This document shows positions 38,210 to 48,657 of a DNA stretch of 64,000 nt, in pieces; the stretch's first letter is position 1; every line of letters begins with the position of its first letter. Source of the DNA: Clostridia bacterium. Lineage in GTDB: Bacteria > Bacillota > Clostridia > Oscillospirales > Butyricicoccaceae. The position numbers were made by a program, and so were the translations under genes. The stretch covers positions 1-64,000 of the forward strand of contig JAFXDF010000026.1 in NCBI GenBank assembly GCA_017521295.1, in the 5' to 3' direction. The notes under the pieces are model-generated. The model was not told the DNA's origin and did no database searches. It saw only the letters and a list, made by a program, of their open reading frames with translations.

Positions 38210-38566
38210 ATGACCAAACAGCAAACATTGATCTGTGACATTCTGGCCAATGTATGCGATCACCTGACCGCTGAAGAAGTTTTCTTCCGGGCCCGGGAGC
38301 AGATGCCAAACATCGCCATGGGCACGGTTTACCGCAATCTCAACCAGCTGGCCGCCGACCGGCAGATCCGCCGCCTCACCGTTCCCGGACAGCCAGACCG
38401 CTACGACCGCAACCCCATGCCCCACGGCCATCTGGTCTGCCAGACCTGCGGCAAGCTGCAGGACCTCTTTCTCCCCGACCTGATCCCCTATCTGGAAAAG
38501 GCCGCCGGCGAGAATATCACCCACTACGAGTTGACAATGGGACATATTTGTGCCCATTGCAAATAA
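38210..38566 (+). CDS. Fur-family regulator (PerR-like)
   Basis: A 118-residue metal-dependent repressor. The winged helix holds [30 protein letters not shown] near 20-50, followed by [23 protein letters not shown] with the H-x-H metal site and the C-x2-C pair; the final CAHC gives the second zinc pair. It is short at the N-terminus for the family. The operator at 38174 and the downstream rubrerythrin gene argue for a peroxide-sensing (PerR) role rather than iron control. Confidence 0.87.
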
Positions 38567-38612
38567 AACTAATCTACAAAACACATTTTACACATTTTCA
38601 GGAGGAACGATT

Positions 38613-39146
38613 ATGAATCTGAAGGGTACCAAGACTGAACAGAACCTGTGGACTGCTTTTGCCGGCGAGAGCCAGGCCCGCAACAAGTACACCTATTTCG
38701 CATCCGTGGCCAAGAAGGAAGGCTATGAGCAGATCTCTGCCATCTTCCTGGAGACCGCCGAGAACGAGAAGGAGCACGCCAAACTGTGGTTCAAGGCTCT
38801 GGGCGAGCTGGGCGGCACCGCCGACAACCTGAAGGCCGCTGCCGAGGGCGAGAACTACGAGTGGACCGACATGTACGCCACCTTTGCCAAGGAGGCCGAG
38901 GAAGAGGGCTTCACCGCTCTGGCTGCTCAGTTCCGCATGGTGGCTCAGATCGAGAAGGCTCACGAGGCCCGCTACCTGGCCCTGCTGGACAATGTCCAGA
39001 TGCAGAAGGTCTTTGAAAAGTCCGAGGAAGTCATGTGGAAGTGCCGCAACTGCGGTCACCTGGTCATCGGCAAGAAGGCTCCCGGCGTCTGCCCCGTCTG
39101 CGCCCATCCCCAGAGCTTCTTCGAGATCGAGTCCAAGAACTATTAA
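38613..39146 (+). CDS. rbr: Rubrerythrin
   Basis: Rubrerythrin reduces hydrogen peroxide using a di-iron centre and a rubredoxin-like FeCys4 site, protecting strict anaerobes. The 177-residue chain has the ferritin-like helices [17 protein letters not shown] near 15 and [18 protein letters not shown] near 47, the second E-x2-H pair in [12 protein letters not shown] near 110, and the C-terminal [23 protein letters not shown]. Start has AGGAGG seven bases ahead. It lies 46 bp after the Fur-family gene. Confidence 0.95.
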
Positions 39147-41998: not shown

Positions 41999-42027
41999 AT
42001 CATACATGAAAACCGGCCAAAAGTCAA
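41999..42027 (-). promoter_or_regulatory. Promoter of the ylxM-ffh-rpsP-khpA operon
   Basis: Minus strand TTGACT (42022-42027), 17-bp spacer, TATGAT (41999-42004). The leader contains GTAAAG-N8-CTTTAC. Confidence 0.78.
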
Positions 42028-42103
42028 GAGAAAAGCGAAAATTTCACGGAGAATTTTTGCGGGTTTTTGACAGGTTTTTGCACAGATTCACCAAGGATAC
42101 CTC

Positions 42104-42140
42104 TTGACACATAATACTATGTATTGTATAGTATTGTCAA
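42104..42140 (+). promoter_or_regulatory. PadR operon promoter with nested dyads
   Basis: TTGACA (42104-42109), 17-bp spacer, TATAGT (42127-42132). A perfect repeat AATACTAT-N7-ATAGTATT (42113-42135) covers spacer and minus-10, and the outer ends CTTGACA / TGTCAAG also pair. This is a strong autoregulatory site for the PadR gene that follows. Confidence 0.8.
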
Positions 42141-42152
42141 GGAGGTGACGGG

Positions 42153-42458
42153 ATGGATATTCAGCTGAAACGGGGCATCCTGGAGATCTGCGTTCTCAAG
42201 GCGTTGGAGAAGCAGGATTCCTACGGTTATCAGATCATCAAGGACCTCTCTCCGGCGGTGACGCTGTCGGAATCCACCCTCTATCCCATCCTCAAGCGGA
42301 TGCAGAGTGCCGGGTGCATTGCCGAATATTCGGTGGAGCACAACGGACGGCTGCGGAAATATTACCACCTGACCCCGGTGGGCGAAGGACGCATTCAGGA
42401 CTTTCTGGTGGAATGGGAGGAAGTCCGCCGGGCATACGAGTATATAAGAGGTGAATGA
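42153..42458 (+). CDS. PadR-family transcriptional regulator
   Basis: A 101-residue winged-helix repressor without the C-terminal extension (PadR-s2 type): KRGILEICVLKALEKQDSYGYQIIKDL, SESTLYPILKRMQSAGCI and RKYYHLTPVGEGRI. ATG follows AAGGAGG. It precedes a HAAS/DUF4097 membrane protein, a very common pairing in which the regulator controls the envelope protein. Confidence 0.93.
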   Translation: MDIQLKRGILEICVLKALEKQDSYGYQIIKDLSPAVTLSESTLYPILKRMQSAGCIAEYSVEHNGRLRKYYHLTPVGEGRIQDFLVEWEEVRRAYEYIRGE

Positions 42459-42459
42459 T

Positions 42460-43383
42460 ATGACCAGATACGATTTTGAAGACTGGCTGCGGTACCGTCT
42501 GTCTGACCTCCCCCAGGAGGAAGTGGACCGCATCGCGGCGTTTTATATGGATGCCATCGAGGCGCGGATGGAGGATGGCATGACCGAAGAGCAGGCCATC
42601 TATGACCTGGGCGAGCCCGAGGCCCTGCTGGAAGAGATCCGGGCCGATCTGCCCCGGCACGTGATCTACAAGCCGGTGCACAAGAGCACCCGGCCCGCAA
42701 ACCGCAAGAGTCGGATCATGACCCTGATTCTGGTGGCGGCCATTCTGGGCGTTGCTCTGCCGGCGCTGGTGATGGTGCTCAACTTCTCCCCGGTGCGGCG
42801 TTCCCAGATCATCTACGAAGCGGTTAGCGTCCCCGTCGAGGCCCCTGCGATCAGCTGGGAAGGTGACGAAAGCGAGTACACCTTTGACCCCTCCGTTCAT
42901 GGGCTGAACAAGGTGGAGATCAGTGCCGCTCTGGGCCGGGTGTCGGTAGAGCCCTGCGACGACAACTGGGTGCACGTGATCGGCAACGACGGCTCCTTTG
43001 ACGCCAACGTCCGGGGCACCACCCTGTATGTGGAGAATGTCAACGACGATCTGCTGGTGCGGATGCCCATGGCCTGGTATCTGCGGCTGAGCATCGACAG
43101 CGATGTGGGCGATGTGGAGATCTATGAGATCACCGCCGCCACCCTGGACGTCAGTGCCGACCTGGGCAACATCTTTCTGCACAATGTCACCGCCGCCGAG
43201 CGGATCAACCTGGCCGCCGATGTGGGCAATATCGAAGGCTCGCTGAAGTATCGCCAGGAGGATTACTGCATCGACGTGTCGGTGGACCTGGGCCAGTGCA
43301 ACCTCACCGACTCGGTGAACGACGGCACGCCCCTCACCATCGCCGCCGATCTGGGATCGGTGAAGATCGCGTTTGAAGACTGA
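42460..43383 (+). CDS. HAAS-domain membrane protein with DUF4097 beta-strand repeats
   Basis: A 307-residue protein. Residues 1-65 form the HAAS (DUF1700) helical domain (YDFEDWLRYRLSDLPQEEVDRI and MTEEQAIYDLGEPEALLEEIR). A transmembrane helix follows near 82-103. The outer part repeats short beta strands: LNKVEISAALGRVSVEPC, LSIDSDVGDVEIYEI, LDVSADLGNIFLHNV, INLAADVGNIEGSLK, typical of DUF4097 right-handed beta solenoids. The ATG follows AGAGGTG. Function is unknown; such pairs respond to cell-envelope stress in some species. Confidence 0.85.
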   Translation: MTRYDFEDWLRYRLSDLPQEEVDRIAAFYMDAIEARMEDGMTEEQAIYDLGEPEALLEEIRADLPRHVIYKPVHKSTRPANRKSRIMTLILVAAILGVALPALVMVLNFSPVRRSQIIYEAVSVPVEAPAISWEGDESEYTFDPSVHGLNKVEISAALGRVSVEPCDDNWVHVIGNDGSFDANVRGTTLYVENVNDDLLVRMPMAWYLRLSIDSDVGDVEIYEITAATLDVSADLGNIFLHNVTAAERINLAADVGNIEGSLKYRQEDYCIDVSVDLGQCNLTDSVNDGTPLTIAADLGSVKIAFED

Positions 43384-43397
43384 GAAAGGAGTCTGCC

Positions 43398-43730
43398 ATG
43401 GCAAAACTGGAACGCACCATTCGTGGAAATCTGGAGGATATTCTGCACACCATTGACCGGGAACTGCTGGAAGGCAGCATCTCTGCCAGTTATGAGGACG
43501 GAAGTGACTACACCGCAGACGGCGTCCGCTGTGCCGTTCGGGTTTATGAGCGGTACAGTTATTCGGGCGGCAACCGGGTAAGCATGAGCATCACGCTTTT
43601 CGGCAAGGATGATCTGTGGCATCTTTGCGCCATCACCTCCGGCGGCAGCCAGGCAACGTTCTTCAAGATCAACACCTGGGGCGAAGAAGCCTTCCTGGAA
43701 AAGCTTTCTGATATTGTAAACCGGCTCTGA
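43398..43730 (+). CDS. DUF6054-like cytoplasmic protein
   Basis: A 110-residue soluble protein with SISASYEDGSDYTADGVRCAVRVYERYSYSGGNRVSMSITLFG and a C-terminal ITSGGSQATFFKINTWGEEAFL block characteristic of the family. No catalytic motif is seen. It starts 14 bp after the HAAS gene with AAAGGAG and is likely part of the PadR operon. Confidence 0.75.
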   Translation: MAKLERTIRGNLEDILHTIDRELLEGSISASYEDGSDYTADGVRCAVRVYERYSYSGGNRVSMSITLFGKDDLWHLCAITSGGSQATFFKINTWGEEAFLEKLSDIVNRL

Positions 43731-43739
43731 GCAACAAGA

Positions 43740-43766
43740 AAAGCACCCCAATAGGGGTGCTTTTTT
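43740..43766. terminator. Bidirectional terminator
   Basis: Stem AAGCACCCC / GGGGTGCTT with a 4-nt loop and six T on the right. Confidence 0.85.
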
Positions 43767-43769
43767 GTT

Positions 43770-44711
43770 TTAATAGAAGGTGGCCACTTCCTGGGCAGGG
43801 GCTTCGGCAGGCTCCACCGAGATCACCTGCAGCACGGGGCCGCGCTTTTCGTAAACAGGGCTGAACTTGATGGCCACCTTGGCGGTGACGGTGATCCAGT
43901 CCTTGCTCTCGAAGTCCATGGGCTTGTCCCACTGACAGGCCAGGCCGGTAAAGGTGATATCGTCCTCGCAGCAGACCATCAGATAGCGGCCGCAGAGGAA
44001 GGTCTTGGGGGGCAGCTTCTGGCTCTTGACGGCCATGCCCTTGAAGCGCAGGGTCTTGCCCTCATACTTGGCTTCTTCTTCGGAGATATCCCGGTACCAG
44101 ATGGCGTAGTCCTCTTCCTTGATGTCCACGATGTCGGCCTCAAGATCAAAGGGCAGGGGATCTTCCAGCTCGTCATAGACCACATCGCCGTTTTCCATCT
44201 CATAGGCGATGTCGCACTTGCGGCTGACGCCCCGGATGATCTTGTGGACCTCCACCTTATCCAGGTCGTCCTTGGCGCGGTTGAGGACGATCATCTCGCA
44301 GCTCTTCAGCTTGTCCACCGTCAGCTGGCGCATATTGGCGTTGTAGCTGAGGAAGGTGTTGGCGTCGGCGAAGCAGATCTCCTGGTAGATGACCCAGTCC
44401 ACCGGCATGGCGTTGTACAGGTCGTCCAGCAGCCACATGCCGTTGTACTCCAGCACCACCCGCTGAGGGTTGTGCTTCATCTGCAGCTTCGCCAGATAGT
44501 CGGGGTTCAGCTGTTCGGGCTCCTCCAGCACTTCCACAAACACGTTGTGGGCGGCAAACTTATCGGGCTCGTACTCCTCTACGCCTTCTTCGCACAACAG
44601 CAGCAGGGTGCGCTCGCCGGCGTTGAAGCGCTCGTCCTCCAGGGTCTCCTGGATAAACTTGGTCTTGCCGGCCTCCAAAAAACCGGTAAACAGATAGACA
44701 GGCAGCTCCAT
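43770..44711 (-). CDS. CobW-like GTPase fused to a YcgQ/DUF1980-like domain
   Basis: A 313-residue fusion. Residues 1-195 are a COG0523/CobW P-loop domain (YLFTGFLEAGKTKFIQETL with Walker A, EYNGMWLLDDLYN, CEMIVLNRAKDDLD). The cysteine motif GCxCC of metallochaperone GTPases is absent and the NKxD box is degenerate (LNRAKDD). Residues about 205-313 resemble the C-terminal domain of YcgQ/TIGR03943: GKTLRFKGMAVKSQ, FLCGRYLMVCCEDDITFTGLACQ and a terminal aromatic VATFY. YcgQ proteins work with YcgR permeases in metal handling. It follows a second CobW gene by one base. Confidence 0.75.
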   Translation of the reverse strand: MELPVYLFTGFLEAGKTKFIQETLEDERFNAGERTLLLLCEEGVEEYEPDKFAAHNVFVEVLEEPEQLNPDYLAKLQMKHNPQRVVLEYNGMWLLDDLYNAMPVDWVIYQEICFADANTFLSYNANMRQLTVDKLKSCEMIVLNRAKDDLDKVEVHKIIRGVSRKCDIAYEMENGDVVYDELEDPLPFDLEADIVDIKEEDYAIWYRDISEEEAKYEGKTLRFKGMAVKSQKLPPKTFLCGRYLMVCCEDDITFTGLACQWDKPMDFESKDWITVTAKVAIKFSPVYEKRGPVLQVISVEPAEAPAQEVATFY

Positions 44712-44712
44712 C

Positions 44713-46002
44713 TTATTCCACCCCGAACAGAGCCTTCATGGCAGAGGTGTCGATCTTGGAGCCGATGACGCACAGACGGCCCATGGTGGAGGCAGCGCCC
44801 AGACGGACGTTTTCCTCACCGGGGACATAGTCAAAGTGAATCCACTTGCCGTCCTGGCCTTCCACGATACCCTTGGCACGCAGCACGGCGCCGTAGATGC
44901 CGCTGGTGAACTGGCTCAGAATGTCCTCGATCTCCTCAACAGAGAACTTGCGGGTGGTCTCCACGCCCCAGGAGGTAAAGACCTCGTCGGCGTGATGATG
45001 GTGATGATCGTGACCGTGGTGGTGGCCGCAGCTGCACTCGCCCTCGTGGTCGTGGTGATGATGCTCGTGGTCATGATCGTGGCCGCAGCTGCACTCCTCG
45101 TCGTGGTCGTGGTGGTGATGATGCTCGTGATCGTGATCGTGGCCGCAGCAGCACTCCTCGTCGTGGTCGTGATGGTGATGATGCTCGTGGTCGTGATCGT
45201 GACCGCAGGAGCACTCCTCGTCGTGGTCGTGGTGGTGATGATGCTCATGATCGTGATCGTGACCGCAGCAGCACTCCTCGTCGTGGTCGTGATGGTGATG
45301 ATGCTCATGATCGTGATCGTGACCGCAGCAGCACTCCTCGTCGTGGTCGTGATGGTGATGATGCTCGTGAGCTTCCTTTTCCAGCAGCGCAAGTTCGGCC
45401 TCCAGAGTGTTCTTCTTCTCCATGGTCTCCAGCATCTGCTTGCCGGTGAGATCTTCCCAGGGAGTGGTGATGACAGAGGCAGTCTCGTTGTGGGTGCGCA
45501 GCAGGGCAACCACATCCTGCAGCTTCTTTTCGCTCATGCCGGTAGTGCGGGAAAGCACGATGCAGCTGGCATGCTCGATCTGGTCGTTGAAGAACTCACC
45601 GAAGTTCTTCATATACATCTTGCACTTGTTGGCGTCTGCCACGGTGGTGAAGCCGTTGAGAACGGCCTCTTCCATCTCCAGGCCCTGGACGGCACGGATC
45701 ACGTCAGACAGCTTGCCCACGCCGGAGGGCTCGATGAGGATCCGGTCGGGATGATACTGCTCCAGCACCTGGCGCAGAGCCTTGCCGAAGTCGCCCACCA
45801 GGCTGCAGCAGATGCAGCCGGAGTTCATCTCGGTGATTTCGATGCCGGCGTCCTGGAGGAAACCGCCGTCGATACCGATCTCACCAAACTCGTTTTCGAT
45901 GAGCACCAGCTTTTCGCCCTTGTAGGCCTCTTCGATGAGCTTTTTGATCAGCGTGGTCTTGCCTGCGCCCAAAAAGCCGGAAAAAATGTCGATCTTGGTC
46001 AT
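44713..46002 (-). CDS. CobW/COG0523 GTPase with a His/Cys-rich repeat array
   Basis: A 429-residue metallochaperone GTPase. Walker A is GFLGAGKTTLIKK near 9, the metal motif is GCICCSLVG near 62 and EPSGVGKLSDV near 93. Residues about 212-338 are a metal-binding array of six units of the form DEEC(C/S)CGHDHDHEHHHHHDH, followed by the CobW C-terminal domain (GVETTRKFSVEEIEDI, AKGIVEGQDGKWIHFDYVPG). Zinc- or nickel-linked COG0523 proteins often have short His runs, but an array this long is exceptional. RBS AAGGAAGCG and a good promoter precede it. Confidence 0.92.
   Translation of the reverse strand: MTKIDIFSGFLGAGKTTLIKKLIEEAYKGEKLVLIENEFGEIGIDGGFLQDAGIEITEMNSGCICCSLVGDFGKALRQVLEQYHPDRILIEPSGVGKLSDVIRAVQGLEMEEAVLNGFTTVADANKCKMYMKNFGEFFNDQIEHASCIVLSRTTGMSEKKLQDVVALLRTHNETASVITTPWEDLTGKQMLETMEKKNTLEAELALLEKEAHEHHHHHDHDEECCCGHDHDHEHHHHHDHDEECCCGHDHDHEHHHHHDHDEECSCGHDHDHEHHHHHDHDEECCCGHDHDHEHHHHHDHDEECSCGHDHDHEHHHHDHEGECSCGHHHGHDHHHHHADEVFTSWGVETTRKFSVEEIEDILSQFTSGIYGAVLRAKGIVEGQDGKWIHFDYVPGEENVRLGAASTMGRLCVIGSKIDTSAMKALFGVE
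45007..45372 (-). repeat. 60-bp in-frame tandem repeat encoding the His/Cys array
   Basis: Five units of exactly 60 bp run in phase from 45061 to 45360, with a shortened sixth unit at 45007-45060. The units at 45241-45300 and 45301-45360 are identical, a sign of recent duplication or homogenisation. Copy number probably varies between strains. Confidence 0.95.
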
Positions 46003-46049
46003 GTTTTCGCTTCCTTTTTATATTAAAATTAATTTTTCACTAATTTTAT

Positions 46050-46077
46050 ATTATAACACAGGAAAGATAGATGGCAA
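46050..46077 (-). promoter_or_regulatory. Promoter of the CobW gene pair
   Basis: Minus strand TTGCCA (46072-46077), 16-bp spacer, TATAAT (46050-46055), with an AT-rich leader. No Zur-type palindrome is obvious. Confidence 0.7.
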
Positions 46078-46155
46078 AGGCTTTTTTTGTGAATTTATTC
46101 GTAGTATAATATTTTGTATGAAATTATACTGAAACGCAGCAGGAGGTACTCCACG

Positions 46156-47550
46156 ATGAACAATCAGCTGGAACGGAAATACGGCCTCTTTACCGCCATC
46201 TGCATGGTGGTGGGCATCGTCATCGGCTCGGGCGTCTTTTTCAAGGCCCAGACCATTCTCACCCGCACCGGCGGCGATATGCCCCTGGGCATTCTGGCCT
46301 GGCTCATCGGCGGCGCCATCATGCTGGTGTGCCTTTTGACCTTTGCCTTCATGGGGCAGAAATATGAGCGGGTCAACGGCCTGGTGGATTATTCGGAAGC
46401 CACCGTAGGCCCCAAGTACGGCTATTACGTGGGCTGGTTCGCTTCCATTATTTATTATCCCACCCTGACCATGGCCCTGGCCTGGCTGTCCGCCCGGTAC
46501 ACCCTGGAGTTTCTGGTGTCGGTGAACCCCCACCTGCCGCTGGTGATCCCGGCTGCCCAGGGCGGCTGCGTCATCGGTCCGGAATGTATGGTGCTGACCC
46601 TGTTTTTCCTGTGCTTTACCTTTACCCTCAACAGCCTTTCCCCCAAGCTGGCGGGCAAATTCCAGACCAGCACCACCATCATCAAGCTGATCCCCCTGGC
46701 CCTGATGGCCGTGGTGGGCGTGATCTACGGCCTGTCCACCGGTATGCTGCAGCAGAACTTTACCCAGGTGGCAGTGGTGGACGGCGGCGTCCAGGGCAAT
46801 CCCCTGTTTGCGGCTGTATGCTCCACCGCCTTTGCCTATGAGGGCTGGATCATCGCCACCTCCATCAACGCCGAACTGAAAAACGCCAAGCGCAACCTGC
46901 CCCGCGCGCTGATCATCGGCGGCTTTATCATCGTGGCGGTCTATCTCTGCTATTATATCGGCGTGGCCGGCGGCGCTTCCAACCAGCAGCTCATCGACCA
47001 GGGCGCTACGGTGGCATTCACCAATATTTTCGGCAATGTGCTGGGCAATATCCTCAACCTGTTCATCGCCATCTCCTGCCTGGGCACCTGCAACGGTCTG
47101 ATGCTGGGCTGCACCCGTGGCATTTATGCCCTGGCCATCCGCGGCGAGGGTATGGCTCCCGCGACCTTCTCCCAGGTGGACAAGGAGACCAACATGCCCC
47201 ATAACTCGGCCATCATCGCGCTGATGGCCTGCGGCGTCTGGTTCCTGTACTTCTATCTGTCCAACCTGGCGGGCACCTGGAGCGGCGCATTTGTCTTTGA
47301 CCCCACCGAGCTGCCCATCATCACCATCTATCTGATGTATCTTCCCATGTTCATCCAGTGGATGCGCAAGGAAAAAGACCAGCCCCTGCTCAAGCGGTTC
47401 ATCATGCCGACGCTGGCCTTCTGCGGCTCGGTGTTCATGGTCATCGCCTGCATCGTCAGCCACAAGTGGGGCTGCTTCTGGTATCTGATCGTATTCGCCG
47501 TGGTCATGTTCTTTGGCTGGCTGGTGAACAAGAAAAAGAAAATCGCTTAA
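46156..47550 (+). CDS. APC family amino acid permease
   Basis: A 464-residue transporter with about 12 hydrophobic helices. Helix 1 has the glycine-rich substrate loop CMVVGIVIGSGVFFKAQTIL, and helix 6 region reads FAYEGWIIATSINAELKNAKRNLPRALI, both typical of the APC superfamily (LAT-like). Start at 46156 has AGGAGG nine bases ahead; a TATAAT box is at 46105-46110 without a clear minus-35. Substrate cannot be read from sequence. It converges on the DUF917 and AroM genes. Confidence 0.88.
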   Translation: MNNQLERKYGLFTAICMVVGIVIGSGVFFKAQTILTRTGGDMPLGILAWLIGGAIMLVCLLTFAFMGQKYERVNGLVDYSEATVGPKYGYYVGWFASIIYYPTLTMALAWLSARYTLEFLVSVNPHLPLVIPAAQGGCVIGPECMVLTLFFLCFTFTLNSLSPKLAGKFQTSTTIIKLIPLALMAVVGVIYGLSTGMLQQNFTQVAVVDGGVQGNPLFAAVCSTAFAYEGWIIATSINAELKNAKRNLPRALIIGGFIIVAVYLCYYIGVAGGASNQQLIDQGATVAFTNIFGNVLGNILNLFIAISCLGTCNGLMLGCTRGIYALAIRGEGMAPATFSQVDKETNMPHNSAIIALMACGVWFLYFYLSNLAGTWSGAFVFDPTELPIITIYLMYLPMFIQWMRKEKDQPLLKRFIMPTLAFCGSVFMVIACIVSHKWGCFWYLIVFAVVMFFGWLVNKKKKIA

Positions 47551-47561
47551 TCGAACGAAAG

Positions 47562-47590
47562 AAACGCTCCGGAGTATTCCGGAGCGTTTT
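47562..47590. terminator. Bidirectional terminator
   Basis: Stem AACGCTCCGGA / TCCGGAGCGTT with a 4-nt loop and flanking A and T runs. Confidence 0.87.
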
Positions 47591-47592
47591 TC

Positions 47593-48657
47593 TTATTCCT
47601 GCCAAAGTTTTTTGCCCACGGCCTTTTCGCAGGGCTCGTACAGCTCGGGCAGGAACATACCCCGTCCCAGCTTGAGCCGGGCTTTTGGCACGCAGACTGC
47701 TGCCACATTCTGACCGGCCCGGATCTGTGCCGAGCAGACGGGCACACATTCGTCCAGATCGATGAAGGTCACCAGATCGGGGAAGGTAGCCAGCCGCTGT
47801 CCGGCCCGCTGGGCAGTCATGTATTCGTTCATAAAGTCCACTTCCAAGGGGCCCTCGTCGGTGTCCACCGTCACCAGGCCCACATCAAAGCCGCCGCTGA
47901 TCTTCAGCGAAACGTCGGTGACCCTGCCCCGTCCCAGCACCCGGCAGTCCAAAAGATCGGCCAGCGCGGCCAGCAGTTTGTCCGCATCGTCCATATTCTG
48001 CTGCCAGACACTGCCCACCTCCATGGCCTGGGAGATACAGCCCACGGCGCTGTTTTGACGGAAGTAGCCTGCTGTTGCCGGGTTACGCAGCACGGTAACA
48101 TAGCCGCCGGCCAGGGTGGCGGCGTTGCGCACAGCGGCAGAGGTCTGCTCCACCGTTCCGGTGACCGTCAGGGCGATCTCGGAAGAGCCCTTGCCGCCGG
48201 CGGCCGTCTGGACGGACTTGTAGCCCGGCAGGGCATGAAGGCCCATGGCACCCATGACGCCGGTGGGATGGGCGCGGCCGTTGCAGGCGGTATCCACCAT
48301 GGGCTTGCCGGTGAGGGCCGCCACCATCCAGCCGTTGGTGATGCTGTGACCGCCGTTTTCGTTGGTGACAAAGGCGGCAATGCTTCGGTCATCGGCCGCC
48401 AGAAAGCTGTCGTAAACCTGCTGATAGTGCCGCTCCTGGACGCAGGAGTCGGGAGATGCCGGCGAACCCACCAGCGAGGCGGTGACCAGCAGGTCCTCCT
48501 CCTTCAGCTCGTCCAAAGACACAAAGCGCACCGGGCCGGTTTTGAGCACCAGATCCAAAATCTCCCGGCCGCCCTCCGGCAGGCCGCCTCCTCCGCCGCC
48601 CAAAAACCAGCCGCCCAGCAGCATCTGTTCGCCGTTTTCTCTCGTCAGTTCAAACAT
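47593..48657 (-). CDS. DUF917 family protein (S-methyl thiohydantoin desulfurase-like)
   Basis: A 354-residue protein. The N-terminal part has LLGGWFLGGGGGGLPEGG near 14 (a six-Gly loop), LVTASLVGSPASPDSC near 50, and VTNENGGHSITNGWMVAA near 92 followed by VDTACNGRAHPTGVMGAMG. These are the conserved blocks of PF06032/DUF917, a group linked to hydantoin and thiohydantoin breakdown. The ATG at 48657 follows AAAGGAGG. It overlaps the AroM gene by 13 bp and the two are surely cotranscribed. Confidence 0.83.
   Translation of the reverse strand: MFELTRENGEQMLLGGWFLGGGGGGLPEGGREILDLVLKTGPVRFVSLDELKEEDLLVTASLVGSPASPDSCVQERHYQQVYDSFLAADDRSIAAFVTNENGGHSITNGWMVAALTGKPMVDTACNGRAHPTGVMGAMGLHALPGYKSVQTAAGGKGSSEIALTVTGTVEQTSAAVRNAATLAGGYVTVLRNPATAGYFRQNSAVGCISQAMEVGSVWQQNMDDADKLLAALADLLDCRVLGRGRVTDVSLKISGGFDVGLVTVDTDEGPLEVDFMNEYMTAQRAGQRLATFPDLVTFIDLDECVPVCSAQIRAGQNVAAVCVPKARLKLGRGMFLPELYEPCEKAVGKKLWQE

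Follow-up and report, generated by a model that had tools for sequence, protein, structure and literature searches.

A COG0523-type protein with a His/Cys-rich repeat insert and its near-obligate DUF1980-fused partner: a putative metal-handling pair in Clostridia

For most COG0523 proteins, neither clients nor partners have been identified (PMC9164220). Stretches of up to 29 His were reported in 2009 (Haas et al., PMC2770081). CobW2 of Cupriavidus metallidurans binds about seven Zn per protein and is described as a zinc-storage protein (PMC11340326). We analysed a 64,000-nucleotide stretch of a Clostridia bacterium genome (the window), in which gene A encodes a COG0523-type protein with a His/Cys-rich insert and is followed by gene B (Table 1). 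Like CobW2, protein A is a COG0523 protein with an internal His-rich region predicted to be disordered, a likeness drawn from the published description. In contrast, CobW2 is proteobacterial and Zur-regulated, and the available part of the report mentions no DUF1980 partner (PMC11340326). E. coli YjiA was the single match in a PDB sequence search with gene A and also the best Foldseek match of the P-loop domain model, ahead of HypB and UreG, whereas YjiA has 318 aa and no comparable insert. HypB and UreG share the G3E fold with protein A, and some of them have His-stretches; nickel binds to the one in B. japonicum HypB (PMC2770081). They differ from protein A in their clients, and protein A possesses the COG0523 CxCC and a CobW_C domain. 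Another comparable system is the pair of an ArsP_1-type permease and a DUF1980/TIGR03943 protein, represented by YcgR/YcgQ in B. subtilis and ScfAB in S. pyogenes. The genes scfA/ycgR and scfB/ycgQ are linked, and their function is unknown (PMC5584981). DUF1980_C is common to this pair and gene B, and insert-less relatives have a permease of the same Pfam family joined to a B-like N-domain, but the window-type operon has no permease. Among the papers searched, none mentions DUF1980 together with CobW, or TIGR03943.

Table 1. Positions of the features of the A–B operon in the window
Feature	Position	Strand	Basis
Gene A, 429-aa COG0523/CobW-type protein containing the His/Cys-rich insert	44713..46002	-	ORF; Pfam
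Gene A G3E P-loop domain, aa 1-180	45463..46002	-	Pfam; AlphaFold model, Foldseek
Gene A P-loop GFLGAGKTT, aa 9-17	45952..45978	-	52/56 relatives identical
Gene A GCICC metal motif, aa 62-66	45805..45819	-	Present in 56/56 relatives
Gene A degenerate G4 motif SRTT, aa 151-154 (NKxD expected)	45541..45552	-	Relatives compared
Gene A His/Cys/acid-rich insert, aa 210-340, predicted disordered	44983..45375	-	Composition; AlphaFold
60-bp tandem array, 6.5 copies	44984..45370	-	TRF; 74-nt exact repeat
Gene A CobW_C domain, aa 342-426	44725..44979	-	Pfam
Gene B, fusion of DUF1980_C with a CobW-like P-loop domain that lacks CxCC	43770..44711	-	ORF; Pfam; NCBIfam; AlphaFold
Gene B DUF1980_C domain, aa 191-307, mainly beta, conserved MTCC	43791..44141	-	Pfam; alignment; model
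Promoter-like site TTGCCA-16-TATAAT, TG before -10, also in L006 upstream region	46050..46077	-	Upstream sequence
Terminator-like hairpin 3' of gene B, common to convergent gene	43737..43766	.	Sequence

The assignment of gene A to the CobW family, proposed in the first-pass annotation, is supported by the invariant GCICC motif and by Pfam matches above the cut-off for both cobW (2e-37, 129 bits) and CobW_C (2.3e-6, 27.8 bits), which flank the insert on either side. The Walker B motif is ILIEPSGVG, and its E91 is invariant among the 56 relatives. The guanine-specificity motif NKxD is stated to be intact in the G3E family (Haas et al., PMC2770081), but an intact NKxD was found in none of the 56 relatives, insert-bearing and insert-less together; in the comparison, the YjiA-like outgroup alone keeps it, as NKTD. 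We thus name protein A a COG0523-type P-loop protein on the basis of its domain content and do not claim that it is a GTPase. Protein A also falls below the curated cut-offs of the NCBIfam equivalogs ZigA (76 vs 600 bits) and CobW (89.5 vs 332.1 bits). Since the AlphaFold model is weak at residues 38–70 as well as in the insert, no geometry of the metal site is claimed. A long antisense ORF (44836-46026, + strand) simply mirrors the His/Asp codons of gene A.

The insert consists of 131 residues, comprising 60 His, 15 Cys, and 43 Asp/Glu, with no Lys or Arg. Its pLDDT of approximately 35 indicates that it is probably disordered. TRF detected one strong array with a period of 60, 90% matches, and a score of 585, far beyond chance. 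The array encodes five units of DEEC(C/S)CGHDHDHEHHHH(H)DH and a degenerate sixth, EGECSCGHHHGHDHHHHHAD, in agreement with the six-unit, 60-bp repeat recognized earlier. The first-pass annotation had also described two identical DNA units, and two or three Cys with about ten His per unit. The identity holds for the first two 60-bp units in the EHHHHHDHDEECCCGHDHDH register, whereas the two most similar units in the DEEC register are one base apart; the Cys count is correct for the full units, but their His number is nine. The two identical units lie inside a 74-nt exact direct repeat (45293-45366 and 45233-45306), and because a typical short read is longer than this, gross collapse of the assembly is not obviously expected.

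A profile search with the gene A N-domain in 243 genomes of the class gave matches at E <= 1e-40 in 61 genomes and at 1e-94 or better in 42, and the insert-bearing subfamily was found in these 42 genomes. The inserts were surveyed in 41 genes including that of the window. The His-rich stretch was present in all 40 complete genes, the window included; the remaining gene, from genome G121, is cut at a contig end. In the 36 genes with a clear end motif, the insert contains 20–60 His (median 37; the window has the maximum) and 0–15 Cys (median 6). The insert-type copy of G154, fetched separately with its flanks, has 31 His in all. A further 80 loci from a contig search were left out of these frequencies, because they had been found partly by His-rich patterns. 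The His/Cys insert is therefore a trait of the subfamily and no peculiarity of the window genome. The range of 20–60 His among the inserts amounts to a natural series in which a dependence of metal-buffering capacity on reservoir size could be examined, and named isolates with the A–B module include Lachnospira multipara ATCC 19207 and Gemmiger formicilis MCC627. An assembly break or N gaps occur within the His/Cys repeat at loci L134, L010, L148, and L151 (N gaps in the latter two), suggesting that draft genomes may often lack this gene or carry it in pieces. The gene of G003 likewise runs to a contig end.

Gene B, which had been left out of the first-pass annotation, starts 1 nt past the stop of gene A. 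Searched with the whole protein, Pfam detected DUF1980_C (4e-22, 78.9 bits against a gathering threshold of 25.9) and a weak cobW match (23.5 bits), and matched no permease or membrane domain; the match to the TIGR03943 permease subunit covers only positions 94–219 of the 221 in the model and is below the curated cut-off (82.4 vs 88.8 bits). The AlphaFold model has a mean pLDDT of 92.5, and its N-domain fold resembles those of HypB and YjiA (Z 13.3 over 162–174 residues). The lysine of the P-loop and a glutamate resembling that of Walker B are kept, and CxCC is absent. A pair of neighbouring cysteines in the DUF1980 part is invariant in the alignment. Gene B was found in all 42 genomes with a strong gene A match, and without gene A in only one genome (G123), where it lies near the contig start. 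Among 86 gene A loci from the genus and contig-search set, gene B lies on the same strand in 82 (79 downstream and 3 upstream), and the remaining four run into contig edges; the median gap between the two frames in the 79 downstream cases is 4 nt. Gene B is thus a near-obligate partner of the insert-bearing gene A. No third conserved neighbour was found among the 86 loci. The next-largest neighbour cluster (9 loci) was rejected as a candidate, consisting of reverse-strand ORFs that lie mostly over the A–B pair. A single promoter-like site lies 5' of gene A, and a hairpin resembling a terminator lies 3' of gene B. Near the operon, neither a B. subtilis-like Zur box nor a common upstream palindrome was found, and no Rfam riboswitch matched in 42000-48000.

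The insert-less relatives (L098–L109) provided insight into the origin of the pair. In these loci, the B N-domain lies mostly within a frame of approximately 530 aa, and Pfam analysis of three of them (L102, L103, and L107) showed that this frame is a fusion of cobW with an ArsP_1 permease. In L102, DUF1980 is encoded as a separate protein. A Fur-family gene is present at several insert-less loci (Pfam-confirmed in L102 and L107), together with genes of the zinc-transport type, namely an ABC-3 permease and an ABC ATPase in L107 and ZnuA in L103. The ZnuA-family protein of L103 (7138-7920, - strand), encoded near the insert-less gene A, has a His/Asp repeat of its own, DDKYDHDDKYDHDD. A FastTree phylogeny, computed once from the N-terminal 185 residues, placed the window-type gene A sequences in one clade with the insert-less ones outside (support 0.86). 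The permease fusion, the separate DUF1980, and the adjacent Fur-family and zinc-ABC genes make the window operon look remodelled from metal transport. The simplest reading, with the direction inferred from sequence comparison, is that an ancestral operon, in which the B N-domain would have been fused to an ArsP_1-type permease and DUF1980 would have been separate, lost the permease, joined DUF1980_C to the B N-domain, and acquired the insert in gene A. Three genomes (G154, G217, and G222) contain an operon of each kind, one insert-bearing and one permease-linked, and would be useful for comparing them. The near-obligate partner and the trail of domain fusions leading to a permease offer a concrete pair to test.

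In the window genome, which is 88% complete, neither an ABC-3 zinc permease nor ArsP_1 was detected, and the only Fur-family protein is encoded beside a rubrerythrin-like gene. The link to zinc consequently rests on the relatives. The Fur-family gene (PerR-like by NCBIfam, below the cut-off) and the following rubrerythrin-like ORF, named by sequence, occupy 38210-39146 (+ strand). A distribution of the A–B module complementary to that of ABC-3 zinc permeases was considered and rejected: 185 of the 243 class genomes have such a permease, including many with the module, so the distribution is uninformative.

The best joint explanation of these observations, which we regard as probable though far from secure, is that the A–B operon, derived from a remodelled permease operon, encodes a pair of proteins that handle metal in the cytosol, zinc being the likeliest. 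Protein A would hold metal loosely on its disordered reservoir of His, Cys, Asp, and Glu, and the metal may pass from there through the GCICC site of the P-loop domain, with nucleotide binding and hydrolysis gating its loading or release. Protein B, without CxCC and with DUF1980_C, would serve as a dedicated partner or client adaptor of protein A. Storage with nucleotide-gated delivery is plausible by analogy and the best reading of the insert, because of its composition, its predicted disorder, and the precedent of CobW2 (PMC11340326). The earlier view of the insert as a metal sponge agrees with the same precedent and with the occurrence of a His/Cys/acid insert, predicted to be disordered, in every relative read. 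Zinc is suggested as the metal by CobW2 and by the genes beside the insert-less relatives. What the sequences themselves show is the anatomy of the two genes, their conserved pairing, and the changed domain architecture; the metal and its binding, the direction of evolution, the contact between A and B, and the gating are inferences. A bolder proposal, which we consider doubtful, is that the two proteins assemble into an asymmetric P-loop heterodimer whose logic would resemble that of the signal recognition particle with its receptor. The two unequal nucleotide-using subunits would then move metal among the disordered reservoir, the CxCC site, and the DUF1980 domain, and would make up a soluble two-component store arising from a permease-stripped transport operon.

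The insert may instead be a metallothionein-like sink for excess Zn, Ni, Cd, or Cu; the P-loop domain would then govern release or turnover and not delivery to a client. The mixed His/Cys ligands and high potential capacity would fit such a role, steady expression would be in keeping with a strong promoter-like site that lacks a Zur box, and the ArsP_1-type permease of the insert-less relatives resembles Cu/Zn efflux families, although below their cut-off. However, the conserved CxCC and P-loop are what delivery would predict, and some insert-less relatives adjoin uptake genes and Fur-family regulators; we consider the sink unlikely.

A nickel or cobalt chaperone like HypB or CobW, serving a hydrogenase, a urease, or a B12 enzyme, appears still less probable. 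The folds of A and B do resemble HypB and UreG, and the HypB His-stretch binds nickel (PMC2770081), but the conserved neighbours showed no gene for a hydrogenase, a urease, or B12, and the transport genes linked to the insert-less relatives belong to zinc-uptake families.

The six-unit array occurs in each of three congeners, the window, L006, and L007, and so lends no direct support to the tuning by repeat number proposed in the first-pass annotation. The mean identity among units within a genome is 0.87 in the window, 0.82 in L006, and 0.86 in L007, compared to 0.78–0.83 between congeners for units at the same position and 0.89–0.91 for the N-domain DNA. These values are consistent with homogenisation of the repeat units, which would be clearest in the window and L007. 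It is very improbable that the repeat has expanded passively, as low-complexity sequence prone to slippage, with no selected function: the units and motifs vary widely among species, and within-genome units are the more alike in two of the three genomes, but all bounded inserts stay rich in His and acidic residues despite their differing motifs, usually with Cys and with at most three Lys/Arg. Elsewhere in the window, a PadR regulator gene is followed by a gene whose product has a HAAS domain and weakly matches DUF4097 (42153-43383, + strand).
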